NCBI GenBank assembly: GCA_025351345.1
Contig: JANXWB010000080.1
Coordinates: 1 to 64,000, forward strand
DNA from: Synechococcales cyanobacterium GL140_1_metabat_312
GTDB lineage: Bacteria; Cyanobacteriota; Cyanobacteriia; Leptolyngbyales; Leptolyngbyaceae
Length of the DNA: 64,000 bases
Direction of reading: 5' to 3'
Positions within the stretch are counted from its first letter, which is position 1. Every line of letters starts with the position of its first letter. The position numbers were made by a program, and so were the translations under genes. Shown piece by piece: positions 7,965-9,558 of the stretch. The notes under the pieces were generated by a model. It ran no database searches. It had not been told where the DNA came from and was given only the letters and a program-made list of their open reading frames with translations.

Positions 7965-9199
<1,235 letters not shown>

Positions 9200-9400
9200 C
9201 TACACCATGATCCGACCGCTGCCCCGATATTCATCATCGGTTTCAACACGACCGCTACCCCGATACTGATTATTAGTTTCAACGCGGCCACTGCCCCGGT
9301 ATGCGAGATTTACCGTGGGTGCCGTACTTAAAAATAGAAGGGTGATAGGGGGAGCGAGGACGAGAAGAACGGAAAGAAATAAAGTAGATTGAGTGCTCAT
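9200..9400 (-). CDS. PatX/PatS-like precursor with three RGSGR pentapeptides
   Basis: A 66-residue protein. Residues 7-25 are a hydrophobic core (LFLSVLLVLAPPITLLFLS) that looks like a Sec signal or anchor, though no Lys or Arg precedes it. From residue 34 the protein is a tandem repeat: YRGSGRVETNNQ, YRGSGRVETDDE, YRGSGRIMV. RGSGR (35-39, 47-51, 59-63) is exactly the PatS C-terminal pentapeptide that binds and inhibits HetR. PatX proteins, known from filamentous cyanobacteria, combine an export signal with an RGSGR-like motif and are often encoded near hetR. Codons of the three copies differ silently, so the peptide is under selection. The gene lies immediately upstream of hetR. Processing, export and signalling are inferred. 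PatX is the closest name, but homology beyond the motif is unproven. Confidence 0.88.
   Translation of the reverse strand: MSTQSTLFLSVLLVLAPPITLLFLSTAPTVNLAYRGSGRVETNNQYRGSGRVETDDEYRGSGRIMV
9212..9301 (-). repeat. Tandem 36-bp repeat encoding RGSGR units
   Basis: Two full 36-bp units and a partial third, each encoding Y-RGSGR plus a spacer. The pentapeptide segments lie at 9284-9298, 9248-9262 and 9212-9226. RGSGR codons are CGG GGC AGT GGC CGC, then CGG GGT AGC GGT CGT, then CGG GGC AGC GGT CGG. Confidence 0.9.
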
Positions 9401-9412
9401 AATAGTTTGTTG

Positions 9413-9447
9413 GGTATGTAACTATTCACTCATACAGACTCTCCGTA
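9413..9447 (-). promoter_or_regulatory. Possible promoter of the triple-RGSGR gene
   Basis: On the minus strand TACGGA (9442-9447) is followed after 17 bases by TAGTTA, ending about 20 bp before the ATG. TACGGA is one mismatch from TCCGGA, the DIF motif proposed at the -35 position of some differentiation-linked promoters, including those of patX-type genes. The match is short and could be chance. Confidence 0.25.
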
Positions 9448-9558
9448 GTCTGATCAGGAGATATTGAAAGATTTCTCAAAATTAAAGGTTGAAATTAGCC
9501 GATCGGACTATGACTTCTATCGGCTGGCAAATTCTTACTAATGAGGCTTAAGTCATGA

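Follow-up and report, generated by a model that had tools for sequence, protein, structure and literature searches.

What might a cyanobacterial precursor do with three copies of the HetR-inhibiting pentapeptide RGSGR in one chain? The question is raised by a small open reading frame (ORF) upstream of hetR in the window, by which we mean the whole 64,000-nucleotide stretch of DNA analysed here. HetR and PatX are considered to form an ancient signalling pair in filamentous cyanobacteria, and the original prediction offered two mechanisms for the triple motif: the release of several peptides per precursor, or an uncut chain acting as one multivalent ligand. The triple motif proved to be real and not unique, and its interest lies in a signal precursor whose copy number varies.

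A patX gene with three motifs

The ORF (9200..9400, minus strand) encodes a protein of 66 amino acids, MSTQSTLFLSVLLVLAPPITLLFLSTAPTVNLAYRGSGRVETNNQYRGSGRVETDDEYRGSGRIMV, and has the properties first ascribed to it: a position upstream of hetR, a hydrophobic N-terminus and three YRGSGR units at 12-residue spacing. Residues 1–33 (9302..9400, minus strand) form a predicted export-type N-terminus that ends in TVNLA directly before the first YRGSGR; within it residues 5–28 are strongly hydrophobic and conserved among relatives, N-terminal hydrophobicity being common to PatX proteins related to this one. The three units occupy residues 34–39 (9284..9301), 46–51 (9248..9265) and 58–63 (9212..9229), all on the minus strand, with an in-frame period of 12 amino acids or 36 nucleotides and linkers of 7 and 7 residues. 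A DNA repeat search returned the same region as a 36-bp tandem array of 2.5 units with 77% matches (9213..9302). The codons of copies 1, 2 and 3 (TAC CGG GGC AGT GGC CGC, TAT CGG GGT AGC GGT CGT and TAT CGG GGC AGC GGT CGG respectively) differ synonymously and specify identical peptides.

At the residue frequencies of the window the chance of three RGSGR motifs in 66 amino acids is about 5e-14, which rules out a chance origin, and RG[ST]GR was not found in any other window ORF of more than 60 amino acids. An assembly artefact was likewise ruled out, as copy-number variation recurs on long contigs of independent genomes; nine-copy patX genes, for example, lie on contigs of 8.2 Mb (genome G182) and 0.79 Mb (G351). 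The window gene is kept in three congeners (G001–G003), where its orthologues adjoin hetR as they do in genome G026 of the sister genus.

The next gene downstream is hetR itself (7965..8864, minus strand), encoding 299 amino acids and scoring 527.9 bits against the NCBIfam HetR equivalog (cut-off 489). It is separated from patX by an intergenic region of 335 nt (8865..9199, minus strand) that contains no TCCGGA. The definition of PatX given by Elhai and Khudyakov in 2018 reportedly includes a DIF1 motif no more than 69 nt ahead of the start. The canonical DIF1 sequence TCCGGA was not found upstream of the window patX; a DIF1-like TCCTGA box, a putative promoter element of the -35 type, is present at -59 from the ATG (9454..9459, minus strand). 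Of 130 sequences upstream of patX, 125 contain the same hexamer, almost invariably some 60 nt ahead of the start codon, compared with 6 in shuffled sequences, and on that account TCCTGA probably serves as the promoter element of patX in cyanobacteria that do not form heterocysts. The DIF1 promoter of Nostoc patX is HetZ-dependent (PMC7377430).

An inverted repeat, AATAGTT...AACTATT, occupies the leader directly before the ATG (9401..9426, minus strand). Such dyads are enriched across patX promoters (39 of 126 reach a net score of at least 7, with about 4.6 expected from shuffles) and are centred some 30–45 nt after TCCTGA; an operator or a leader hairpin is possible.

The RGSGR motif, the linkage to hetR, the hydrophobic N-terminus and the DIF1-like box at -59 together identify the ORF, by its sequence, as a patX gene, best named a multi-copy PatX; the original assignment to a PatX-type, predicted exported precursor adjoining hetR therefore stands. 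Nif genes, as a mark of the diazotrophy that belongs to a heterocyst patterning system, were sought through nifH, and no nifH over the curated cut-off was found in the window genome (best match 220 bits, against 394). The closest named relative of the window HetR is that of Alkalinema sp. RU_4_3 (83% identity). From these two results the host is probably a non-diazotrophic, Leptolyngbya-like filament, in keeping with the non-heterocystous filament that had been proposed.

Copy number and selection among PatX genes

To place the window gene among its relatives, we searched 390 genomes of the class for hetR loci and obtained matches in 196 at E 1e-30; upstream DNA was examined for a subset of these loci, together with added named contigs. 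To be counted, a PatX had to be encoded on the hetR strand, no more than 3 kb upstream of that gene, and to pass a hydrophobicity filter, so that the 69 hetR loci without PatX under this filter are not evidence of absence. This search of relatives for small hetR-linked ORFs with multiple RGSGR motifs, as the original prediction had proposed, yielded 133 distinct PatX proteins, 97 with one motif and 36 with two to nine, and nearly all of the multi-copy genes found were directly upstream of hetR. The earlier belief that PatX carries a single motif is thus wrong, Leptolyngbya sp. BL0902 being among the 36; that belief reflects the small number of examples studied. Elhai and Khudyakov may already have seen multi-copy PatX, as genomes of this kind had probably been released by 2018.

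PatX anatomy adjoining hetR was found in all four genomes of the window genus and across the family. Within the genus there are three copies in the window, two in G002, five in G003 and one plus a decayed RGSDR in G001; the sister genus (G026) has eight, and a single copy is present in G013 and G010, the nearest outgroups. Family f13 carries four to nine copies in genus g103 and two to five in most of its other genera. Several Microcoleus-type genomes have two patX genes, most Microcoleus loci having one only; at loci L054, L058, L077 and L157 two separate single-copy genes of the ERGSGR and RRG(S/T)GR types lie upstream of hetR.

Genes of this kind are probably overlooked by annotation pipelines, as the NCBIfam model NF047413, an annotation classifier named for heterocyst PatX rather than a defining trait, misses them: the window PatX scored 8.7 bits against a cut-off of 30, a single-copy family relative was also below it at 14.5, and a five-copy PatX gave no match. 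Related precursors were also seen away from hetR. Genome G010, of a sister genus and with a single-copy hetR-linked patX of its own, encodes on contig C4 a predicted exported protein of 103 amino acids with three RGSGR and three RASGR motifs (locus L080, 1447-1758, plus strand), which is not linked to hetR. In family f11, loci L097 (genome G100) and L098 (G121) encode predicted exported proteins of about 155 amino acids with RASGR units and RGSER or RASER pieces; both genes have a TCCGGA-type box at -50, and hetR was absent from the flanks examined. HetR of three f11 genomes (G077, G100 and G110) has Ala at position 254, and the pairing of RASGR precursors with an Ala254 HetR may reflect a shifted peptide specificity in this family.

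A 128-row HetR tree places the multi-copy clade of the window (eight; five; three, two and one copies) within single-copy relatives, with branch supports of 99 and 98. The tree requires at least eight switches between single and multiple copies overall, and four independent pairs fall on well-supported branches. The DNA repeat unit is 36 bp in the window, 30/60 bp in G003 and 63 bp in G026, and the linker length between motifs is 5–7 residues for the window clade, for g103 mostly 7 and for most others 11–19, with an overall range of 5–30.

So rapid a change in copy number within one genus (1, 2, 3 and 5), in an array that is a true DNA tandem repeat and with a few decayed units present, could mean that only one copy matters and that the others are neutral products of repeat slippage. 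The decayed units are RGSDR in congener G001 and in G189, and RGGGR in G300, some of them in genes that are now single-copy. Codon comparisons, however, make neutral slippage highly improbable. With all multi-copy genes pooled, RGSGR codons within genes differed at pN 0.013 and pS 0.53, a dN/dS of 0.015 against 0.44 for the flanks, in an estimate conditioned on genes with at least two intact motifs; the ratio was 0.017 once units with one mismatch were included. Synonymous sites of the motif have thus diverged greatly around an unchanged protein sequence, and the multi-copy genes hold 164 exact motif copies compared with three near-misses. The copies do not drift, given this difference from their flanks, and on these codon counts they are under strong purifying selection.

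Also against neutral slippage, the residues before successive motifs run H, Y, H, Y across several genera of f13, the second unit being RGTGR, and from the recurrence of both this order and the RGTGR unit some f13 copies are judged to be old. The same two features raise the prospect that one f13 precursor may yield peptides of differing affinity. Four-copy f13 PatX proteins that keep the RGTGR second unit and the H/Y/H/Y order were seen at loci L092, L093, L094, L107, L167 and L175.

Proposed processing and the HetR pocket

The motif units of multi-copy PatX share a local context. In 65% of units the second residue ahead of the motif is Ala or Ser, the residue immediately before it is mostly Y, D or H, and an aliphatic residue (I, V or L) follows it in 88%; in single-copy PatX the following residue is most often Arg. 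In a sample with a family bias, this context suggests cut sites flanking an X-RGSGR hexapeptide. Nostoc PatX requires both export and cleavage by PatP; its hexapeptide binds HetR at 88 nM, and a signal-less, uncut PatX gave no two-hybrid interaction with HetR (PMC12756182).

The structure of HetR bears on the choice between the two mechanisms first offered. The HetR dimer has two peptide clefts, so that an uncut chain might bind both clefts or bridge dimers, and three motifs per chain would permit avidity. Its ligand, however, is X-RGSGR, where X is any residue whose free N-terminal amine is gripped by Glu254 and Asp256, and an N-terminal extension should hinder binding (PMC4649674). The need for a free N-terminus and the failure of uncut PatX to interact both fit the release of several peptides better than a multivalent chain; linkers of 5–30 residues have no fixed length, and export would part the chain from cytoplasmic HetR. 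On these grounds the first of the two mechanisms is retained, and we regard the multivalent ligand as most improbable.

We consider it reasonably probable, therefore, that the window patX encodes a multi-copy peptide precursor that releases several HetR-inhibiting hexapeptides, with copy number setting the dose. In such a scheme the DIF1-like TCCTGA promoter would drive patX directly upstream of hetR and the hydrophobic N-terminus would export the PatX chain. Each repeat would then be cut out, typically by cleavage between a small residue and X on its N-terminal side and after Arg, ahead of an aliphatic residue, on its C-terminal side, so that one window precursor would give three X-RGSGR hexapeptides (YRGSGR). 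Once inside cells, the peptides would detach HetR from DNA in the manner of the PatS and PatX hexapeptides in Nostoc, and the tandem gain or loss of repeats would alter the yield of inhibitor per transcript (1, 2, 3 or 5 units in the genus, 8 in the sister genus).

The window HetR keeps five of the six peptide-contact residues tested (R223, E253, D256, D270 and D278), residue 254 being Thr rather than Glu. Its nearest relatives have Ala at this position, and Glu254 is also lost in HetR of genus g103 (Ser; four to nine copies) and of the Microcoleus type (Thr). In Anabaena HetR the substitution E254A weakened PatS6 binding about eightfold, from 12 to 91 nM (PMC4649674). Repeat number might accordingly be read as an evolutionary control of dose that co-evolves with HetR affinity, the loss of Glu254 being offset by more inhibitor, either through added repeats (the window clade with Ala or Thr and up to eight copies, g103 with Ser and four to nine) or through a second patX. 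This is a hypothesis that we think rather unlikely to hold, as the independent-pairs test of Glu254 loss against copy number, which takes the tree into account, lacked power (median p of 1, with too few supported pairs) and most Microcoleus loci have a single patX.

Comparison with known systems

PatX reportedly occurs in non-heterocystous filaments too, as described by Elhai and Khudyakov in 2018. The window protein resembles the PatX of the Nostoc PCC 7120 type in being a small exported protein, as predicted from its N-terminus, with an RG(S/T)GR motif, a position near hetR and a DIF1-like box; it differs in having three motifs rather than one, an aliphatic residue after the motif and TCCTGA in place of TCCGGA. 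The single-motif Nostoc PatX is thus not the general form. PatS and HetN of Nostoc PCC 7120 resemble it as sources of a HetR-inhibiting RGSGR peptide. PatS is a 17-amino-acid peptide with one C-terminal motif and HetN a large reductase-like protein; to our knowledge neither is a tandem precursor.

A close match in gene design is PatX of Leptolyngbya sp. BL0902 (GFS31_32390, locus L203), a non-diazotrophic filament like the probable window host, in which three RGSGR motifs also lie directly upstream of hetR. Its units are DRGSGR, IRGSGR and YRGSGR, separated by 12 and 17 residues, and its HetR keeps Glu254 where the window HetR has Thr. The main text of the report on this strain (PMC11298460), as searched, makes no mention of the copy number of the motif. 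Deletion of BL0902 patX had effects on transcripts that were judged basically independent of HetR (PMC11298460), and this result is the main caution against a HetR-directed function. Together with the multi-copy precursors that carry RASGR and are unlinked to hetR (L080 in G010; L097 and L098 in f11), it would fit a PatX that acts mainly on a target other than HetR, for example in an extracellular or filament-breakage role served by the repeats. We hold such a role to be unlikely, though deserving of attention: nearly every multi-copy gene found adjoins hetR, the pentapeptide is the exact HetR ligand and the residues that contact it are largely kept. For the release of HetR-inhibiting hexapeptides, the strongly selected copies, numbering from one to nine, form a natural series of doses against which peptide yield, processing and receptor affinity could be gauged, and the tractable BL0902 already holds a three-copy gene.

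If that reading is true, multi-copy PatX would be a cyanobacterial parallel to the multi-copy pheromone precursors of Bacillales. The RRNPPA propeptides of that group (partners of Rap, NprR, PlcR and AimR) contain up to six copies of the mature peptide, are exported and have the receptor gene adjacent, and their copies are proposed to raise the pheromone-to-receptor ratio, or 'chattering' (PMC9765709). The two systems differ in their receptors (TPR proteins versus HetR), in their unrelated peptides, in phylum and in the copy number reached, which is up to nine in PatX; the receptor gene beside the window patX encodes HetR, with the Pfam domains Peptidase_S48 and HetR_C and no TPR. By analogy, then, multi-copy PatX would work like the multi-copy RRNPPA propeptides while being unrelated to them.
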